From assembly GCF_000833025.1 (NCBI RefSeq), contig NZ_CP010817.1, positions 682,001 to 746,000 of the forward strand: a stretch of 64,000 nt of DNA, written 5' to 3'. The translations under genes and the position numbers were made by a program. The stretch is from Myroides profundi (GTDB lineage: Bacteria > Bacteroidota > Bacteroidia > Flavobacteriales > Flavobacteriaceae). Shown here in pieces: positions 27,199-34,947 of this stretch (within the stretch, counting starts at the first letter, position 1; the number at the start of each line of letters is the position of its first letter). Below the pieces are notes generated by a model. It did no database searches and had not been told where the DNA came from. It saw only the letters and a program-made list of their open reading frames with translations.

Positions 27199-27234
27199 AA
27201 AGCCCTGGTATCATTTGATATCAGGGCTTTTTTT
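27199..27234. terminator. Terminator between the kinase and Lrp genes
   Basis: Outer stem AAGCCCTG / CAGGGCTT and inner stem TATCA / TGATA close to a short loop, followed by eight T. It is placed for the plus-strand kinase operon and reaches the stop of the convergent Lrp gene. Confidence 0.87.
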
Positions 27235-27694
27235 ATAAAGGTACATTAGAGGTCTTTTTGATTGTCTGAATTACAAAAGAACTTTTGATATTAGAGATGA
27301 TCTCTAGTTTAGAGATCTTGTGTACTACGAATTGTTGATAGGCTTGCACGTCGTCAACTAATAACTTTAAAAAGAAGTCATAGTCCCCCGCTATATAAGA
27401 AGCTTCTAATACTTCGTCTAATCCCTTTACATACTTCTCAAATTCTTCGAATAGACTTTCTTGATGTCTGATCAGTATGACTTGACAGTATACGATTAGT
27501 TTTTTTCCTAATAGATCTGGGTTAAGTTGGGCAGTGTATCCTTGAATAATACCTGTTGCTTCAAGCTTCTTTATTCGTTCGTGTACTGGTGTAAGTGATA
27601 AGTTTACTTTCTCTGCTAGCTGTTTTGTCGACTGTTTTCCGTCTAATTGAAGTTCGATAAGTAGTCTTTTATCAATTTCGTCTATGTGTTGCAT
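27233..27694 (-). CDS. Lrp/AsnC-family transcriptional regulator
   Basis: This 153-residue regulator has an N-terminal winged helix-turn-helix (IDKRLLIELQLDGKQSTKQLAEKVNLSLTPVHERIKKLEATGIIQGY) and a C-terminal RAM/AsnC ligand domain (about 65-150). Such proteins form octamers, bind amino acids and control transport or metabolism of those amino acids. It is divergent from the leader ORF and SusCD operon starting about 27.8 kb. The shared 160-base region and the usual local action of this family make it a candidate regulator of that operon. Confidence 0.93.
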   Translation of the reverse strand: MQHIDEIDKRLLIELQLDGKQSTKQLAEKVNLSLTPVHERIKKLEATGIIQGYTAQLNPDLLGKKLIVYCQVILIRHQESLFEEFEKYVKGLDEVLEASYIAGDYDFFLKLLVDDVQAYQQFVVHKISKLEIISNIKSSFVIQTIKKTSNVPL

Positions 27695-27795
27695 AGTTAA
27701 TTTTTCTGTTTAGTGAAGTTTAGGTTATGTAAAAGTAATGCTTTTTTCTTTTGAAGATATTGATTGTAGATGTTTTTTCCTTAATTGTGGTTGTG

Positions 27796-27827
27796 TTGTA
27801 GAAAAAATATTTATGTGTATATCTTTG
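27796..27827 (+). promoter_or_regulatory. Promoter of the leader ORF and SusCD operon
   Basis: TTG at 27796-27798, 21 bases, then TATCTTTG at 27820-27827 matches the flavobacterial promoter. It predicts transcription starting near 27834, about 22 bases before the leader ORF and about 275 bases before susC. Confidence 0.65.
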
Positions 27828-27856
27828 CACTGTTATATCAGATAAAAAATAAGTAA

Positions 27857-27982
27857 ATGAAGATTATACAAAAAATAGTAAAACCTATTTCGAAATCATG
27901 CAGTACACCTGTTCTTGCTAAAAACTTCTCTATGTGTATGGAGAAGATGTGTGTACCCTTATGTGAAGAAAAGCTTTATTGA
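27857..27982 (+). CDS. Cys/Met-rich leader peptide (41 residues)
   Basis: A short frame from ATG (27857) to TGA (27982) lies between the promoter and a terminator ahead of susC. It encodes a basic N-terminal half (MKIIQKIVKPISKSC) and a C-terminal half crowded with sulfur residues: Cys at 15, 27, 32 and 36, Met at 26, 28 and 31, within SMCMEKMCVPLCEE. No family is recognised. Two readings seem reasonable: a leader peptide whose translation senses cysteine or methionine supply, or a metal- or thiol-sensing peptide. A comparable idea is the DUF2946 CruR leader that controls a TonB-dependent transporter in Bordetella. I infer that it is translated; the sequence alone does not prove it. Confidence 0.55.
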   Translation: MKIIQKIVKPISKSCSTPVLAKNFSMCMEKMCVPLCEEKLY

Positions 27983-28001
27983 TTTTTTGTTTTAATAACA
28001 G

Positions 28002-28033
28002 AAAAGGAGGCTTTGGTAGAGCCTCCTTTTTTT
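28002..28033 (+). terminator. Terminator/attenuator between the leader ORF and susC
   Basis: An 11-bp perfect stem (AAAAGGAGGCT against AGCCTCCTTTT) with a 7-base loop and a T-run starts 20 bases after the leader ORF stop. It lies inside the predicted transcript, so it must be bypassed for susC to be expressed; this is the signature of attenuation. Confidence 0.75.
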
Positions 28034-28034
28034 G

Positions 28035-28088
28035 TATCGTTTTTTTAAGCAGCAAAAAAACGATAGGTAATGTGTGTGCTGCTAAAAA
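28035..28088 (+). promoter_or_regulatory. Two mutually exclusive hairpins in the susC leader
   Basis: TATCGTTTTTTT (28035-28046) pairs perfectly with AAAAAAACGATA (28054-28065). Its loop holds AGCAGC (28048-28053), which can instead pair with GCTGCT (28078-28083), extended by the T-run at 28041-28046 against AAAAA at 28084-28088. The two structures cannot form together, and the second would approach the susC start at 28109. This is a plausible switch, not a proven one. Confidence 0.45.
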
Positions 28089-28108
28089 TAATAAAATTTT
28101 TAGTATAA

Positions 28109-31100
28109 ATGAAAAGTATTAAACTTCGGCTACTAATAAGTAGCTTGCTACTGCTGTGTAATGTGGCTTTAGCACAACAAGTAACTGTGACAGGTGTGGT
28201 AAGTGAACAGGGGGGATTCTCTCTACCTGGAGTCTCAGTTATCGTAAAGAACTCAACTAAAGGAGTACAAACTGACTTAGATGGTAAGTATGCTATCGAT
28301 GTAAATGAAGGTGATGTGCTTCAGTTCGAATATGTAGGATTTAAACCTCAGTCTATCACTGTGACTAAGCAGCGCGTAGTGAATATTAGCTTAACTGAGG
28401 ATGTAATAGGCTTAGACGATATCGTAATCGTGGCTTATGGTGCTCAAAAACAAAAAGCTGTAGTAGGTGCGATTAGTCAGATTAAGAGTGATGCTTTAGA
28501 TAAGCAAGTGTCTACTTCTGTAGTGTCTGCACTACAAGGTACAGTAGCTGGAGTGAATATCATAAACTCTAGCTCTCAACCTGGAGAGAGCCCTACAATA
28601 CGTATTCGTGGTATCGGTTCTATCAATGCATCAGCAGATCCATTAATTATATTAGATGGAGCACCGTATTCAGGATATATTAGCTCTATAAGTGCAGATC
28701 AGATAGAAAGTATCAACGTACTAAAAGATGCGTCTTCTACAGCCTTATATGGTTCTCGTGGAGCAAATGGTGTAATCCTGATTAAAACAAAAATGGGTAA
28801 GCTAAATAGCCAACCAGACGTGAATATCAAGTTGAGTTCTGGAGTAGCATTCGACGCTGTGAAAACACACAAGGTATTAGATACTCGTGGGTATACACAG
28901 TATCTGTGGGAAGCTAGAAAGAATAACTATCAATATGTGCTAGGACAAGATGAAGAGACAGCACGTAAAACGGCTTCAGATGGGTTAGTAAGTTACTTTG
29001 GTTATAACCCATTTGGAACAGATCAACCTGTGGATTATAATGGTAATTGGACAGTTAAGAATCCGTTGTTATGGGAGACAGACTGGAAAAAAGAATTGCA
29101 GAGAAACCAAGCGTTTAGAAATGAATACAATTTTAATGTAGCAGGTGGAGGTGATCGTACGACTTATTTCCTTTCAGGTAACTACTTAAACCAAGATGGA
29201 ATGATCAAGACTTCTAACTTTGAACGTACGACTGTTCGTCTTAATATAGAAAGTCAAGTGACAGACTGGTTACAATTAGGAGCTAATACTGCGTACTCTG
29301 CTTCTAATCAAAACTTCCCTGTACAGAGTGGTACTAATCTTTATAGTCCAATGGGATGGATCTATGCTATGCCTAGTGTGTATCCTGTATATAAAAGAGA
29401 CTTAAATGGACAAGTAGTATATGATGCTCAAGGAAGTCTGATCTATGACTATGGTAATGCTTCTAGTAAAGATATTAATAGTGTTCGTCCTATCATGAGT
29501 GGTGAGAATGCAGCAGGGATATTACAAAATAATAGTACTGTAATTAGACGATCTACGACGAGCTGGAATGGTTTTGCTAAGTTAGATTTGGCAGAAGGGT
29601 TATATTTCAGAACTAATCTGTCTTATGAGAAATTTGATTATGACAATAAAGAATACAATAACTCTCAGTATGGTCAGGCATCTAGTGTGAATGGTCGTGT
29701 ACTTAGATTCAAGGATACGTCAGAGACATTGAATTTTATTAATGCATTGCACTACGATAAGACATTAGGAGAACACCATATCGCAGTAGATGGTATCTAC
29801 GAGGCTTATAAGTTTAAGAAAGATTTCTTTAATGCTTCTACTACAGGATTCTTACCTGGTAATACAGAAATAGGGAGTGGTACATCATTAGAGGGTATCA
29901 ATGGATATGATGTAGAGGATAGATTGACTAGTTATTTAGGAAGGGTAAGTTATGACTATGCAAACAAGTATTTTGTAGAAGGATCGTTTAGACGTGATGC
30001 AAGTACTCGTTTTGATAAATCTGTACGAAAAGGAAACTTCTACTCAGTAGGAGGATCTTGGATCGTGTCATCAGAAGATTTCTTAGTAGACAATAATACT
30101 ATTGATTTATTAAAATTAAGAGTTTCTTATGGTGAGCTAGGGAACAATAATATCACAGGTAAGTACTTTCCTTACTTAAGATTATTTGATACAGGATATA
30201 ATCAGTTAGATAATCCTGGAGTTGTATTAGGTGATTTAGCTGATCCATATTTGACATGGGAAAAAACGGCTTCGTTCAATGCTGGTATTGATTTTAGCTT
30301 GTTTAACAATAGAATAGAAGGATCTGTAGATTACTATAAAAAGCGTTCTATTGATTTATTATTTGCTATTCCACAAGCTCCTTCTACAGGTAACTTAGAG
30401 ATATTATCTAATGCAGGAACAATAGAAAACTATGGACTAGAAGTAAGTTTGACTTCTCATAATATACGTTCTGGAGATTGGAAATGGGATACTTCATTTA
30501 ACTTCTCTATTGATAGAAATAAGATTAAATCACTGACGCAAGACAGTTTTATCAGTGGGTTAAATAGATGGGCAGAAGGTCGCTCTCTTTATGATTTCTA
30601 TTTAAGAGACTGGGCTGGTGTAGACCCTAATGATGGATATGGAATGTGGTATAAGGATGTAGTAGATACAAATGGTCAAGTGACAGGAAGAGAAACTACA
30701 AAGGACTATAATGAGGCAACACGTTACTATAATAAGTCTGCTCTACCAAAACTAGTAGGAGGATTTAATACGGCTTTATCTTATAAAAACTTTGATTTTA
30801 GTGCATTCTTTAATTTTAGTTTAGGAGGTTATATTTATGATAATGATTATTCTGGATTAATGAATGGTATGTCTATAGGGTATCAAAGTTCACCTGATAT
30901 AGTTAATCGTTGGCAAAAGCCTGGTGATATTACGGATATCCCAGTACTTATTAACTCTACAAATAACTTCGCTGCAACATCTACTAGATTCTTATATAAG
31001 AATGATTATTTAAGATTAAAAGCATTAACACTAGGATATACTTTACCTATCGAGAGTTTAGGTAAGTTTAAATTAAAACAAGCAAGGGTGTATGTACAAG

Positions 31101-31225
31101 GAGAGAACTTATTGACTTTCCAGTCACATAAAGGTATCGATCCAGAGCAAGCAATTAATGGGGTGACTAACTATCGTGTACCTCTATCTGCAACCCTATC
31201 TGTTGGATTAAATATTAATTTCTAA
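28109..31225 (+). CDS. SusC/RagA-family TonB-linked outer-membrane transporter
   Basis: This large (1038-residue) TonB-dependent transporter has a signal peptide (about 1-22, MKSIKLRLLISSLLLLCNVALAQ), a carboxypeptidase-like domain (about 25-105; GVSVIVKNSTKGVQTDLDGKYAI), a plug domain with the SusC signature (LQGTVAGVNII, RIRGIGSINASADPLIILDG, INVLKDASSTALYGSRGANGVILIKTK) and a 22-strand barrel ending in LSVGLNINF. The following gene is its SusD lipoprotein, which acts as a lid. Substrate class is unknown: no glycoside hydrolase, peptidase or sulfatase gene is adjacent. The Cys/Met leader and Lrp regulator hint at an amino-acid or sulfur-related substrate, which is inference. Confidence 0.95.
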   Translation: MKSIKLRLLISSLLLLCNVALAQQVTVTGVVSEQGGFSLPGVSVIVKNSTKGVQTDLDGKYAIDVNEGDVLQFEYVGFKPQSITVTKQRVVNISLTEDVIGLDDIVIVAYGAQKQKAVVGAISQIKSDALDKQVSTSVVSALQGTVAGVNIINSSSQPGESPTIRIRGIGSINASADPLIILDGAPYSGYISSISADQIESINVLKDASSTALYGSRGANGVILIKTKMGKLNSQPDVNIKLSSGVAFDAVKTHKVLDTRGYTQYLWEARKNNYQYVLGQDEETARKTASDGLVSYFGYNPFGTDQPVDYNGNWTVKNPLLWETDWKKELQRNQAFRNEYNFNVAGGGDRTTYFLSGNYLNQDGMIKTSNFERTTVRLNIESQVTDWLQLGANTAYSASNQNFPVQSGTNLYSPMGWIYAMPSVYPVYKRDLNGQVVYDAQGSLIYDYGNASSKDINSVRPIMSGENAAGILQNNSTVIRRSTTSWNGFAKLDLAEGLYFRTNLSYEKFDYDNKEYNNSQYGQASSVNGRVLRFKDTSETLNFINALHYDKTLGEHHIAVDGIYEAYKFKKDFFNASTTGFLPGNTEIGSGTSLEGINGYDVEDRLTSYLGRVSYDYANKYFVEGSFRRDASTRFDKSVRKGNFYSVGGSWIVSSEDFLVDNNTIDLLKLRVSYGELGNNNITGKYFPYLRLFDTGYNQLDNPGVVLGDLADPYLTWEKTASFNAGIDFSLFNNRIEGSVDYYKKRSIDLLFAIPQAPSTGNLEILSNAGTIENYGLEVSLTSHNIRSGDWKWDTSFNFSIDRNKIKSLTQDSFISGLNRWAEGRSLYDFYLRDWAGVDPNDGYGMWYKDVVDTNGQVTGRETTKDYNEATRYYNKSALPKLVGGFNTALSYKNFDFSAFFNFSLGGYIYDNDYSGLMNGMSIGYQSSPDIVNRWQKPGDITDIPVLINSTNNFAATSTRFLYKNDYLRLKALTLGYTLPIESLGKFKLKQARVYVQGENLLTFQSHKGIDPEQAINGVTNYRVPLSATLSVGLNINF

Positions 31226-31237
31226 AAGAGTAAATAC

Positions 31238-32629
31238 GTGATAAAATCAATAATAAAAAGTATCGTAGCTGTATTATTCATTAGTACAGTTACAGGGTGT
31301 TCATCAGATTTCTTAGATGACCCAAAACCAAAAGATAGTATATCTCCAGAAGTAGTATTTGGGAGTAAAGAGGGGGCGACCTCATTCTTATCAGGAATTT
31401 TGAGATTACAGAGAAGCACTTTGATTAATGATGAAGCGTCTGGATTACATAGTATTTTATTTGCTCGAAGTGTAAAAGGAGCAGATTTGATACAAAAACA
31501 GATTTGGTTTGGCTCAGATTATGACTACCAGGTGTATTTAAGTACAGGGACTAGATCTAAGTTCTCATGGCGATTGCCTTATAGAATCATAGATCAAGTA
31601 AATAACTTTATTCAAGGGGTAGAGAGTAGTACAAAGCTTAATAAAGAGGATAAAGATGAGCTGATCGGTCAAGCATTAGCATTAAGAGGATATTATTACT
31701 TTCAATTAGCAATAGAGTTTGGAGATGCTTATTTATCTAATCAAAACGTAACATTTCCACCGATATATACAGAGCCAACTACTGTACCTAATCCATTCTC
31801 TACTAAGGAAGAGTTCTTTGGAAGAATAGTAAAAGACTTGGAAGAAGCTTCATCTAGACTAGGAGGAGGTAGAATAAATAAATCATATATCAATAAATCA
31901 GTAGCTCAAGCTTTTTTGGCTCAGGTATATCAATACATGGGTAAATGGGATCTAGCAAAGAAGAATGCGAATGAAGCTTATGGAGGAAATATACTAAAAG
32001 TATTGAATGCAGAAGATTACAACAAAGGCTTTGATACGATGAGTGCGACAGAGTGGTTATGGGCATTGCCTCAGAGTGCTGATCAGTCTGTGTATTATAA
32101 ATCACATCCACATGCTATGATGGATCATATAGCGGTAGCTTATCACGGTACGTTTATCAATGATGAGTTTGTGAAATATTTTAGCCCAACAGATGTGCGA
32201 AACTTGTTTAGTAATTTTTATGAAAAGCCTAAAGGAGATTGGCAAGAGTATGTGACTTCTAAGTTTAAATTCACATTCGAAGCAGATTTACCAGTTATCA
32301 GATATCCTGAATTGGTATTAATAGAAGCTGAAGCAGAATATCATTTAGGCAATGAAGGAAAGTCAAAAGAGATATTAGATGCTATCCGTCTAAATAGGGA
32401 TGCAAAAGCAAAAGCTACAAGTGCTACTGGTACAGCGTTACTAGATGTAATCTTATTAGAGAGAAGAAAAGAATTATATGGAGAATGCGGAGTAGAGTGG
32501 TTCGATGCTAAGCGATTATTAAGAGGGATCACTCGTACAGGTAATCACAGAACTGTAGTATCTCTTCCTGCACAGGATAAACGCTTTCAGTTAGTCATTC
32601 CTCAAGAAGAGTTAGATGCTCGTAATTAA
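31238..32629 (+). CDS. RagB/SusD-family surface lipoprotein
   Basis: This 463-residue SusD homologue has a lipoprotein signal ending in VTGC (Cys21). The residues after it (SSDFLDD) resemble flavobacterial surface-export signals for lipoproteins. TPR-like helices typical of SusD appear in the middle (QALALRGYYYFQLAIEFGDA, VAQAFLAQVYQYMGKWDLAKKNANEAY), and the C-terminal family segment ERRKELYGECGVEWFDAKRLLRG is clear. It starts with GTG 12 bases after the susC stop. With SusC it forms the outer-membrane nutrient-capture pair; the ligand is not readable. Confidence 0.94.
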   Translation: MIKSIIKSIVAVLFISTVTGCSSDFLDDPKPKDSISPEVVFGSKEGATSFLSGILRLQRSTLINDEASGLHSILFARSVKGADLIQKQIWFGSDYDYQVYLSTGTRSKFSWRLPYRIIDQVNNFIQGVESSTKLNKEDKDELIGQALALRGYYYFQLAIEFGDAYLSNQNVTFPPIYTEPTTVPNPFSTKEEFFGRIVKDLEEASSRLGGGRINKSYINKSVAQAFLAQVYQYMGKWDLAKKNANEAYGGNILKVLNAEDYNKGFDTMSATEWLWALPQSADQSVYYKSHPHAMMDHIAVAYHGTFINDEFVKYFSPTDVRNLFSNFYEKPKGDWQEYVTSKFKFTFEADLPVIRYPELVLIEAEAEYHLGNEGKSKEILDAIRLNRDAKAKATSATGTALLDVILLERRKELYGECGVEWFDAKRLLRGITRTGNHRTVVSLPAQDKRFQLVIPQEELDARN

Positions 32630-32777: not shown

Positions 32778-33674
32778 TTATTGTGTAATCTCTCTAAAGA
32801 GACTTTCTAGATTCTTGTTTTTCACTTGCATAGATAGTGTTTTAAGACCATTCTCTTGAGCGAAGTCATATACAGTAGGTCTATAATCATTATCTATAGG
32901 GAATACTAATTCCCATTGTGTGTCATGAATATGATTAGCACGAATAAGATTAGGGATTCTATCTATAAACTGAACTTCTATTTTAAAGTCAAATTCAACA
33001 GCTATTATCTGTTCATTTTGATTCTCTAACATAGCAGAAAGCATTTGATCCGCTACTATTTGTCCTTTTTTGATAATAATCACCCGGTCACAAATAGCTT
33101 CTACTTCTTGCATAATATGTGTAGAAAGAAATACTGTCTTATCCTTACCAATGTTTTTAATTAACTCTCTGATCTCTACTAATTGATTAGGATCTAATCC
33201 TGTGGTAGGTTCATCTAAGATAAGTACCTCTGGATCGTGAAGAAGAGCAGTGGCTAATCCTACACGCTGTCTATATCCTTTCGATAATTCACCTATTCGC
33301 TTATGTGCTTCAGGGCTTAGACTTGTTAAGTTAATTACTTCGTCAATTCTATTTTTAGCTACTTTATAAATATCAGCATTGAACTGTAAATACTCTCGCA
33401 CATACATCTCTAAATACAGCGGATTGTGCTCTGGTAAATAACCTATAGAGCGCTGTACATTTCGCTGTTCTGTCTCTACGTTAAAGTCATTGACATAAGC
33501 TTGACCTTCATCACTGTGAATGTATGTCGTTAGAATCTTCATTAGTGTAGACTTACCTGCCCCATTAGGGCCTAAAAAGCCAGCTATTTGACCTTTTGGG
33601 ATAGAGAAACTAATACTGTCTAAGGCTTTCTGTTTGCCATAAAACTTGCTTATATTTTTAACCTGTAGTGACAT
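32778..33674 (-). CDS. gldA: Gliding motility-associated ABC transporter ATPase GldA
   Basis: This 298-residue ABC ATPase has Walker A GPNGAGKST (about residues 34-42), the Q-loop/YLPEHNPLYLEMYVREYL segment, signature LSKGYRQRVGLA, Walker B EVLILDEPTTGLD and the switch histidine in FLSTHIMQEVEAI. From memory it closely resembles Flavobacterium johnsoniae GldA, the ATPase that works with the GldF/GldG membrane proteins. Those partners are not in the window. In flavobacteria gldA is encoded apart from gldFG, so this is not odd. A generic drug or lipid ABC ATPase is the alternative. Confidence 0.83.
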   Translation of the reverse strand: MSLQVKNISKFYGKQKALDSISFSIPKGQIAGFLGPNGAGKSTLMKILTTYIHSDEGQAYVNDFNVETEQRNVQRSIGYLPEHNPLYLEMYVREYLQFNADIYKVAKNRIDEVINLTSLSPEAHKRIGELSKGYRQRVGLATALLHDPEVLILDEPTTGLDPNQLVEIRELIKNIGKDKTVFLSTHIMQEVEAICDRVIIIKKGQIVADQMLSAMLENQNEQIIAVEFDFKIEVQFIDRIPNLIRANHIHDTQWELVFPIDNDYRPTVYDFAQENGLKTLSMQVKNKNLESLFREITQ

Positions 33675-33710
33675 TATCTTGATTTATATGATAGTAACAA
33701 AAGTATATAT

Positions 33711-34100
33711 TTAATGTGAAAATCCGAAAGAAACACTGAATACAATAATACCTATTACAATCAATGTGATAAATACATATAACCAATCTTTCTCTAAGAA
33801 AAACGATAAAAGTGATAGAAATATTCTAAGCACAGGTGTTAAAAATAAAAGCAATATCCCCAAGAAGATAATAGATTCCCCATCTACCTGGGCTACACCT
33901 GATAAAATATTGTTTATCACGTTGATTATATTATCATCTTTTTCTATAAAATTAGTGAAGTTTACTTGTTCACTTCCTTTGCTAGAAAAAAGTATAATAC
34001 CTCCTATACCAGCGACAGATAGGGCAGTCCATACTCCATATCGCAGTACATTACCAATTATAGATTGTAAGTCTGTATCTGAAAATTTAGTTGTTCCCAT
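33711..34100 (-). CDS. DUF1634-family membrane protein
   Basis: This 129-residue protein has three membrane helices (about residues 18-38, 75-95 and 103-125) and matches the DUF1634 pattern: an N-terminal helix preceded by DLQSIIGNVLRYGVW and followed by a loop to FLGILLLFLTPVLRIFLSLLSFFLEKDWLYVFITLIVIGIIVF. It starts four bases after the end of a TauE/SafE exporter gene, the typical partner, suggesting that it is an accessory subunit of that permease. Confidence 0.82.
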   Translation of the reverse strand: MGTTKFSDTDLQSIIGNVLRYGVWTALSVAGIGGIILFSSKGSEQVNFTNFIEKDDNIINVINNILSGVAQVDGESIIFLGILLLFLTPVLRIFLSLLSFFLEKDWLYVFITLIVIGIIVFSVSFGFSH

Positions 34101-34104
34101 AATC

Positions 34105-34947
34105 TTATATATTACCTACTACTCCGTTATAAATCATATTAATCGCTAAAGCTAAGATTAGAAAAGCAAAGAATACTTTTAGTTTTTTAGGGTTGGCCTT
34201 AAGAAGTACTTTGGCTCCTACCATTGCCCCAACTAATACACCTATTATTACGGGCATACAGATAGAGGGTTCTATATATCCTTTTTGGATATAGATAACT
34301 GAGCTAGCAATAGCTGTTACTCCCATCATAAAGTTACTTGTAGTAGTAGATACTTTAAAAGGAATCTTCATAATAGAATCCATAGCAATTACTTTAAAAG
34401 CACCTGAGCCAATACCTAAAAGCCCAGACATCATTCCAGCAATCCCCATCATACTAAAGCCTCCAATGATATTCTTCATACCATATTTTACAGTTGTACC
34501 ACTAGGGGTAGGGTATGTACTGACTAGTTTTAAGTTATGAGCAAGTTTACTTGAGTTCTCAGGAGTAACCAAGTGATCTTCTTTTTTTCGAAGAGAATTG
34601 ATAGAAGAAAAAGTAAGAGTTAATCCAAAAATAACTGCAAGGACAGAAGTATTCGCATTGGTAGAGATGATAGCCCCTATAACAGCACCTGCAGTAGTAG
34701 CTATTTCTAGAAACATTCCTAATCTCATATTGGTAATTCCTTCTTTGACATAGGCTGAAGCTGATCCTGAAGAAGTTGCTATTACAGCAACTAAGGCAGT
34801 TCCAATAGCATAATGCATATCAACACCTAAGAATACAGATAACAAAGGAATGATTATTATACCGCCTCCTAGTCCTGATAAAGAGCCTATGAAGCCTGCT
34901 GCAAATGCTCCTAAGAACATGATCAGCGTGAAAGTTAATAAGGTCAT
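34105..34947 (-). CDS. TauE/SafE-family sulfite/anion exporter
   Basis: This 280-residue protein has about eight membrane helices and the internal duplication usual for TauE/SafE: GSLSGLGGGIIIIPLLSVFLG near the N-terminus and MMSGLLGIGSGAFKVIAMDSIM near residue 175, each carrying the glycine-rich repeat. Members move sulfite, sulfonates or other small anions across the inner membrane. A TauE-DUF1634 pair is a known arrangement and forms a two-gene unit here. The actual substrate is uncertain. Confidence 0.9.
   Translation of the reverse strand: MTLLTFTLIMFLGAFAAGFIGSLSGLGGGIIIIPLLSVFLGVDMHYAIGTALVAVIATSSGSASAYVKEGITNMRLGMFLEIATTAGAVIGAIISTNANTSVLAVIFGLTLTFSSINSLRKKEDHLVTPENSSKLAHNLKLVSTYPTPSGTTVKYGMKNIIGGFSMMGIAGMMSGLLGIGSGAFKVIAMDSIMKIPFKVSTTTSNFMMGVTAIASSVIYIQKGYIEPSICMPVIIGVLVGAMVGAKVLLKANPKKLKVFFAFLILALAINMIYNGVVGNI

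Follow-up and report, generated by a model that had tools for sequence, protein, structure and literature searches.

A Met/Cys-codon leader with a candidate transcription attenuator upstream of a SusCD importer operon in Myroides profundi

Introduction

Most work on SusCD systems has treated them as glycan importers, and in many cases what they carry is not known. One susCD operon of Myroides profundi, in the 64,000-nucleotide stretch of DNA analysed here (the window, whose numbering is used throughout), raises the question of why the gene of an outer-membrane importer should be preceded by a short ORF crowded with Met and Cys codons and then by an intrinsic terminator. The original prediction for this DNA had offered control by cysteine/methionine supply, or sensing of metal or thiol by the nascent peptide, with amino-acid control possibly added by a divergent Lrp-type gene. 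We propose that the leader is probably a ribosome-mediated transcription attenuator that couples SusCD expression to the availability of charged Met-tRNA and Cys-tRNA. This reading is based on the elements themselves, on their conservation, on the alternative pairing found in computed folds and on the geometry obtained under an assumed ribosome footprint.

Results

The susCD operon and its upstream region

The proposed regulated genes lie on the + strand and encode a susC-type TonB-dependent transporter (28109-31225; Pfam Plug and CarbopepD_reg_2) and a susD-type lipoprotein (31238-32629; Pfam SusD-like_3 and SusD_RagB), a TonB plug protein followed by a SusD-family protein as in SusC/SusD importers. 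The SusC protein shares 99% identity with its counterpart in M. odoratimimus CCUG 39352. Its closest relatives in the PDB by sequence were a chain named SusC homolog (1.5e-107), then RagA (E 4.8e-101) and other SusC homologs, and several of the PDB relatives of SusD are named carbohydrate-binding; RagAB is a peptide importer. Two PAPS_reduct matches in the genome suggest that it assimilates sulfate. Organic sulfur would therefore not be obligatory, and the importer would be a scavenger rather than the sole sulfur source. Directly downstream of susCD, on the - strand (32778-34947), are genes for a TauE/SafE-type exporter, a DUF1634 protein and an ABC ATPase, and ABC and TauE genes also occur near susCD in L027, L031 and L032; the TauE family includes sulfur-compound transporters.

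Upstream of susC, the order of elements is promoter box, leader ORF, terminator, hairpins and susC (28109), so that the 41-codon ORF, the terminator and the hairpins before susC that had been described at this locus were all present. The predicted promoter at 27796-27827 likewise contains a -7 box, TATCTTTG (27820-27827, + strand), which we take to be a promoter element of the TAnnTTTG type. Further upstream, a spaced inverted repeat, TTTTTTC...GAAAAAA, with arms 21 nt apart (27773-27807) may be a regulator site, and the L028 locus has TTTTATC...GATAAAA at the matching place, as judged by eye. The leader RNA (27830-28130) folds more stably than every one of 100 dinucleotide shuffles (z -3.5).

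A protein search with the 41-residue ORF returned, besides itself, only weak matches (best E 0.004, among 61 and 299 genomes) because the peptide is too short and too diverged. SusC served instead to find orthologs, in seven named loci and across 398 genomes of the GTDB genus, and 13 distinct loci were compared: the window locus (W) and 12 orthologs whose SusC is 62-89% identical to that of W. Nine are of the Myroides type (L028, L030-L033, L050, L051, L053 and L055) and three, with 62-64% SusC identity, form a sister clade (L058-L060). The near-duplicates L027 (of the window) and L029 (of L050) were dropped from the counts, and L050 was omitted from alignment A3, covariance model R1 and the ribosome-edge folds owing to an insertion in the P1 hairpin described below. 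The 13 loci are related by descent, and fold counts across them are non-independent. The TAnnTTTG box was found at most 420 nt upstream of the terminator in 12 of the 13 loci, and farther out in L050, which shares a record with L029; no box of this type occurred between terminator and susC in any of the 13.

A conserved leader ORF with clustered Met and Cys codons

The leader ORF (27857-27982, + strand) encodes MKIIQKIVKPISKSCSTPVLAKNFSMCMEKMCVPLCEEKLY and includes a cluster, M26 C27 M28 M31 C32 C36 (27932-27964), that would be the stall site, with six Met/Cys codons inside 12. Four Cys had been assigned to the C-terminal half together with several Met; three Met are there, as are three of the Cys, C15 falling in the first half. 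The search upstream of orthologous susC genes that the original prediction called for gave a clear answer: an ORF 25-72 codons long, again with clustered Met/Cys codons, stood in the same place, followed by the terminator, in 13/13 loci. At least four Met/Cys per 12 codons were reached in all 13 and at least five in ten. By the same measure (at least four), only one of 33 control SusC-type loci scored (1/81 uORFs), the upstream stretch lying partly within the gene in 5/33, and shuffled upstream regions did so in 37/2600 (mononucleotide) and 59/2600 (dinucleotide) cases. No such leader was present at 18 loci with about 50% SusC identity (L061-L078), one of which carries an 8-residue uORF, MMMYCCFS, and was placed among the controls. 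The leader DNA has no second copy in the genome (next best E 0.02).

Which codons are kept depends on the clade: Met in Myroides, Cys and Met in the sister clade. ATGnnnATG was invariant in 8/8 aligned leaders (the near-duplicate L027 among them), and the kept Myroides residues are Met in the pattern MxMxxM (MCMEKM, MKMEMM, MNMAGM, MNMTSM, MKMETM, MIMASM, MCMEEM), with L031 retaining MxM only. The conserved codons of the cluster in the window are accordingly its Met codons. Cys is variable in these leaders; its positions are elsewhere occupied by Lys, Asn, Ile, Tyr, Gly, Ser or Arg, and AMKMEMMGMS and SMIMASMRMP lack Cys altogether. The sister-clade peptides are MMLCMGCCLYMGICC, MMLCKCCW...CC and MMCCCGVLKNCC; all three have a C-M pair near the stop. 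Control by Cys/Met supply, as first suggested, is thus upheld by the anatomy of conserved ORF and terminator, but for Myroides the conserved codons point to Met, Cys being replaceable. The N-terminal part of the ORF varies among loci, and by codon-position counts synonymous changes in the leader ORF were not in excess; both fit a peptide whose codons matter rather than its product, although the counts lend no positive support to translation of the ORF.

A peptide of this composition could also act through its side chains: in the manner of CutF or CruR, the nascent Met/Cys-rich chain would bind metal, copper especially, or sense thiol redox, and stall its own ribosome. The motifs MxMxxM and CC resemble copper-binding motifs. 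CruR, which controls a TonB-like transporter, is described as independent of its signal sequence in the accessible part of PMC9973294, so that having no obvious signal peptide here does not exclude such a mode. The placement of the cluster speaks against it, since in Myroides it occupies the last 16 codons, and in a second SusC family (below) it lies at or near the stop, so that it would still be inside the ribosome when it had to act. About 30 residues are shielded by the tunnel, and the accessible text of the same source puts the CutF metal motif 45 residues from its C-terminal motif; the argument carries less weight for the sister clade, in which some 30 residues separate the start of the main cluster from the stop. 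The ORF also lacks a proline-rich stalling end, matched no Pfam family, and has replaceable Cys positions in Myroides, and a terminator/antiterminator pair would be unnecessary. We therefore disfavour metal or thiol sensing and regard it as unlikely.

Mutually exclusive pairing around the terminator

The intrinsic terminator (GGAGGCTT...GAGCCTCC plus a T-run; 28002-28033, + strand) was near-identical between leader ORF and susC in 13/13 loci. A terminator scan found two terminator-like sites, this one and its mirror on the - strand, against a shuffle mean of 0.4. Transcription from the upstream promoter would have to pass this terminator by read-through to reach susC, as first noted.

The original prediction had pointed to two mutually exclusive hairpins after the terminator. 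It overlooked an alternative pairing that lies upstream instead: the terminator 5' arm, GAGGCUUU (28007-28014), pairs in the minimum-energy fold with AAAGCUUU (27970-27977, + strand), a short way upstream of the stop codon, and the resulting antiterminator encloses a nested hairpin, UUUUUUGUU/AACAGAAAA (27983-28005, + strand). The AAAGCTTT reading of the antiterminator 5' strand was kept in 10/10 Myroides leaders, in five of which the ORF stops upstream of the strand, and it is therefore conserved as RNA and not as codons. When RNA up to the terminator 5' arm was folded with ViennaRNA, the antiterminator was the minimum-energy fold in 12 of 13 leaders, the exception being L031, for which a short segment was used. 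Antiterminator segments were below the shuffle mean in 13/13 cases; seven fell below the 5% level, and six failed to beat 95% of shuffles, L051 being the weakest at 22%. Terminator and antiterminator strand are nearly invariant in Myroides, and covariation is thin. The sister-clade 5' strands differ (AAGaCCUC, AAGCUUuC and AAGCU versus GAGGCUU), and the nested hairpin there shows a two-sided change, CUUUGU/ACAAAG in L058 and L060 versus CUUUAU/AUAAAG in L059. Three of five features sought in an attenuator were found: clustered codons (13/13), a terminator (13/13) and an antiterminator that uses the terminator 5' arm (12/13).

Folded at full length, all 13 leaders preferred the terminator (about -19 to -23 kcal/mol, versus about -5 to -11 for the antiterminator). 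The switch must therefore be kinetic and decided during transcription, as in known attenuators. Assuming that the ribosome's edge lies 13 nt downstream of the A-site codon, we folded 12 leaders (without L050) and counted terminator-arm bases paired upstream. With the ribosome at the main Met/Cys codons, 7-8 arm bases were so paired, and with the ribosome at the stop there were fewer in 12/12 leaders: three in W, L032, L051, L059 and L060, one in L031, and 5-6 in L028, L030, L033, L053, L055 and L058. In these last six the antiterminator was only weakened, with -6 to -9 kcal/mol left, and the weakening at the stop codon is in part trivial because less RNA is free. Fewer arm pairs were also seen with the ribosome at L030 M25, L032 M10-M12 and L059 M31-C34, and none at W C36 and L032 C20. 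Under this footprint, stalling at the majority of the Met/Cys positions would leave AAAGCUUU accessible, and a ribosome on the stop codon would mask all or part of it.

Should the terminator instead be constitutive and partly leaky, the ORF and antiterminator would be incidental and regulation would fall to the Lrp-type regulator at the promoter. A divergent Lrp/AsnC-type gene (27233-27694, - strand; Pfam AsnC_trans_reg), putatively linked to susCD, is indeed adjacent in 8/13 loci, the sister clade included (W, L031, L032, L050, L051 and L058-L060, by tblastn on neighbours). Near L028, L030, L033, L053 and L055 it was not found (within 1.5 kb upstream for L053 and L055), yet these five keep the whole leader, so the leader does not depend on the Lrp gene to be retained; codon cluster and antiterminator strand are, moreover, conserved beyond neighbouring sequence. 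We consider this account improbable. As for the suggested amino-acid control by the Lrp-type gene, its adjacency was recovered in most loci but not in the five, and the regulator may add control at the promoter.

A conserved element between terminator and susC

After the terminator comes a strongly conserved element (28035-28103, + strand), possibly for translational control. It begins with hairpin P1 (UAUCGUUUUUUU/AAAAAAACGAUA, loop AAGCAGC; 28035-28065), with 97.0% of alignment cells paired and two pairs changed on both sides among 12 distinct sequences. For the whole structure, 59/500 column shuffles reached two both-side pairs and 2/500 reached the percentage paired. P2 is a GCUGCU (28078-28083) able to pair with AGCAGC (28048-28053) in the P1 loop; 97.2% of its cells were paired, covariation was nil, and one pair was broken in each of L059 and L060 among the 12 sequences. 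Hairpin P3 (CUAAAAAU/AUUUUUAG; 28082-28103), from the Myroides alignment, is immediately upstream of susC and its stem, by eye, is not kept in L058-L060. The pattern GCT[GA]C[TC]AAAA[ATG]TAAT, GCUGCYAAAAWUAAU-like in RNA, occurs at the P3 start in 13/13 loci. The two later hairpins had been taken to exclude each other; they need not, as loop and GCUGCU could pair as a pseudoknot.

In Myroides sp. N17-2, a tandem second susC (L029:9415-12528) is without leader ORF and terminator and has a degenerate P1 and an A-rich stretch before its ATG. In L029/L050, a MITE-like element of about 150 bp, its ends forming imperfect inverted repeats, is inserted in the P1 5' arm/loop region of the first susC copy; it splits P1 and leaves both arms.

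It is very improbable that the leader is secondary and that P1/P2/P3, as a riboswitch or a pseudoknot bound by protein, forms the main switch and controls susC translation: conservation of the loop AGCAGC and of GCUGCYAAAAWUAAU across both clades, and persistence of a degenerate P1 before the tandem copy lacking leader and terminator, speak for it, but no Rfam covariance model, known riboswitch and T-box classes included, matched the window at gathering scores, P2 is without covariation and loses one pair in 2/12 sequences, and the Met/Cys codons would be left unexplained.

Strong matches in the genus lie only upstream of close susC orthologs

Covariance model R1, built on this region, had matches of E 3.3e-14 or better in 12 of the 398 genomes of the genus, each time upstream of susC, and these are exactly the genomes whose SusC reaches 62% identity to that of the window. 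Eleven of the matches are sequences used to build the model and the twelfth (G593) is the insertion locus; the scan therefore shows that there are no further strong copies and is not an independent discovery. The next match had an E of 8.9e-6, and 137/398 genomes had one at E 0.1 or better. Ten of the weaker matches were inspected (L105-L114); they resemble common terminators and have no Met/Cys leader.

A second SusC family with Cys-clustered leaders

The nearest SusC paralog in the genome (37% identity; G000:C1:3707916-3710960) is also preceded by a leader ORF, ending in MMCMCCCL. Its family comprised 18 loci, one in this genome and the others in 17 further genus genomes (64-78% identity), and in 18/18 the leader ORF has Cys residues that cluster at its end or close to it (MCMCCCM, CMCPCCFL, SCMCC, MYMCGCC, ACCCR, MKCCVNLCCS, MKCCMNLCCC, VYMCCCI, MMACPYLCCQ and MSMCCC among the endings). 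Seventeen reached at least four Met/Cys per 12 codons, L130 having three. In many loci a hairpin follows the leader, and several folds pair the Cys codons with bases at or after the stop. At the level of sequence, this family is independent support for the attenuation reading of the window locus; with two SusCD families of one genome behind sulfur-codon leaders, that reading concerns more than a single curiosity.

In other genera of the family, a SusC of this kind was present in 9/248 genomes (38-40%), none with a leader that reached the same density, the stretch lying inside the gene in 5/9. The scanned neighbours of the second-family susC in this genome held no obvious sulfur gene. A poly-Cys pattern gave 23 matches in the own genome versus 9 in the reversed control; two have an ATG-started frame, one being the second-family leader and the other, MCCCC (L144), a 5-codon frame that looks incidental. 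Across the genus there were 22 matches in 21/189 genomes versus 10 in the reversed control. Two exact matches and one with one mismatch are second-family leaders, and L167 and L181 among the other 19 precede a long ORF.

Ahead of the leader ORF, many second-family loci (L035, L123-L125, L127-L139; in this genome within G000:C1:3707916-3711300) have a palindrome, seen by eye, with the pattern TACCATAnACGTGGTA; it looks like an operator site for some regulator beside the poly-Cys leader.

Discussion

The attenuator would work as follows. Given an active promoter, transcription would start near 27830 and a ribosome would translate the leader ORF. With Met and Cys plentiful, it would reach the stop (27980-27982) and cover 27970-27977; the terminator (28002-28033) would form, and transcription would end upstream of susC. 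When Met or Cys is short, the predicted stall at the Met/Cys codons (27932 to about 27952) would let 27970-27977 pair with 28007-28014, blocking the terminator, and RNA polymerase would continue by read-through into susCD. The cargo would presumably be sulfur-containing peptides or related compounds.

More tentatively, and with less than even confidence, sulfur-codon leaders may serve flavobacteria as a dedicated scavenging control: at least two SusCD families, Met-type and poly-Cys in the same genome, would be opened by Met- or Cys-tRNA starvation to import organic sulfur, with pseudoknot-based translational control in addition at the window operon. Where SusCD cargo is uncertain, a readout of Met- and Cys-tRNA points to sulfur amino acids or peptides, and regulation would become a clue to function. 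If true, ribosome-mediated attenuation would extend from biosynthesis to outer-membrane uptake in Bacteroidota.

Among the closest known systems are the classical amino-acid attenuators of the trp/his/ilv type. They share the leader ORF with codons for the sensed amino acid, the stop beside the antiterminator strand and the mutually exclusive terminator and antiterminator; they differ in that their target is a biosynthetic operon, whereas here it is an outer-membrane SusCD importer, read through mixed Met/Cys codons, in Bacteroidota.

Cysteine codons also feature in short leaders elsewhere. Polycysteine leader ORFs of mycobacteria (Canestrari et al. 2020, as described in PMC9031893 and cited by title in PMC13236596) and Cys leader peptides of Actinobacteria (PMC1262725) consist, as far as the accessible parts of these sources go, of a short ORF ahead of an operon, with Cys codons in runs close to the stop. 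In the accessible part of PMC1262725, the Mycobacterium leaders stand upstream of cys operons and are without conserved terminator hairpins, unlike the present locus with its intrinsic terminator, antiterminator and SusCD target. Polycysteine-type ends occur in the second SusC family; the window ORF (C15, C27, C32, C36) has no consecutive Cys run beside its stop. The uORFC-8-2 motif before cysS in Rhodobacterales, by the accessible account in PMC8632094, combines tandem Cys codons, a short ORF and an intrinsic terminator, with stalling proposed to give read-through; it differs in its cysteinyl-tRNA synthetase target, in using Cys only and in belonging to alpha-proteobacteria. CruR and CutF share an upstream ORF, and CruR a TonB-type transporter as target; in the accessible part of PMC9973294 the CutF metal motif is far from a proline-rich C-terminal motif, an end that the present ORF does not have.

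Flavobacterium psychrophilum belongs to the same family as Myroides. Within the phylum, leader-peptide attenuation has been suspected upstream of its amino-acid biosynthesis operons (PMC9723704) and for Bacteroides thetaiotaomicron transcripts whose long 5' UTRs contain short ORFs (PMC7366714); the mechanism proposed is the same, and the accessible parts of both reports make no tie to SusCD or to Cys/Met leaders. A Met/Cys leader attenuator on SusCD was not apparent among the matches listed in the literature searched by title and start of abstract, subscription papers being mostly outside it. The mechanism, then, is a known one; its use on an outer-membrane SusCD importer with mixed Met/Cys codons looks new.
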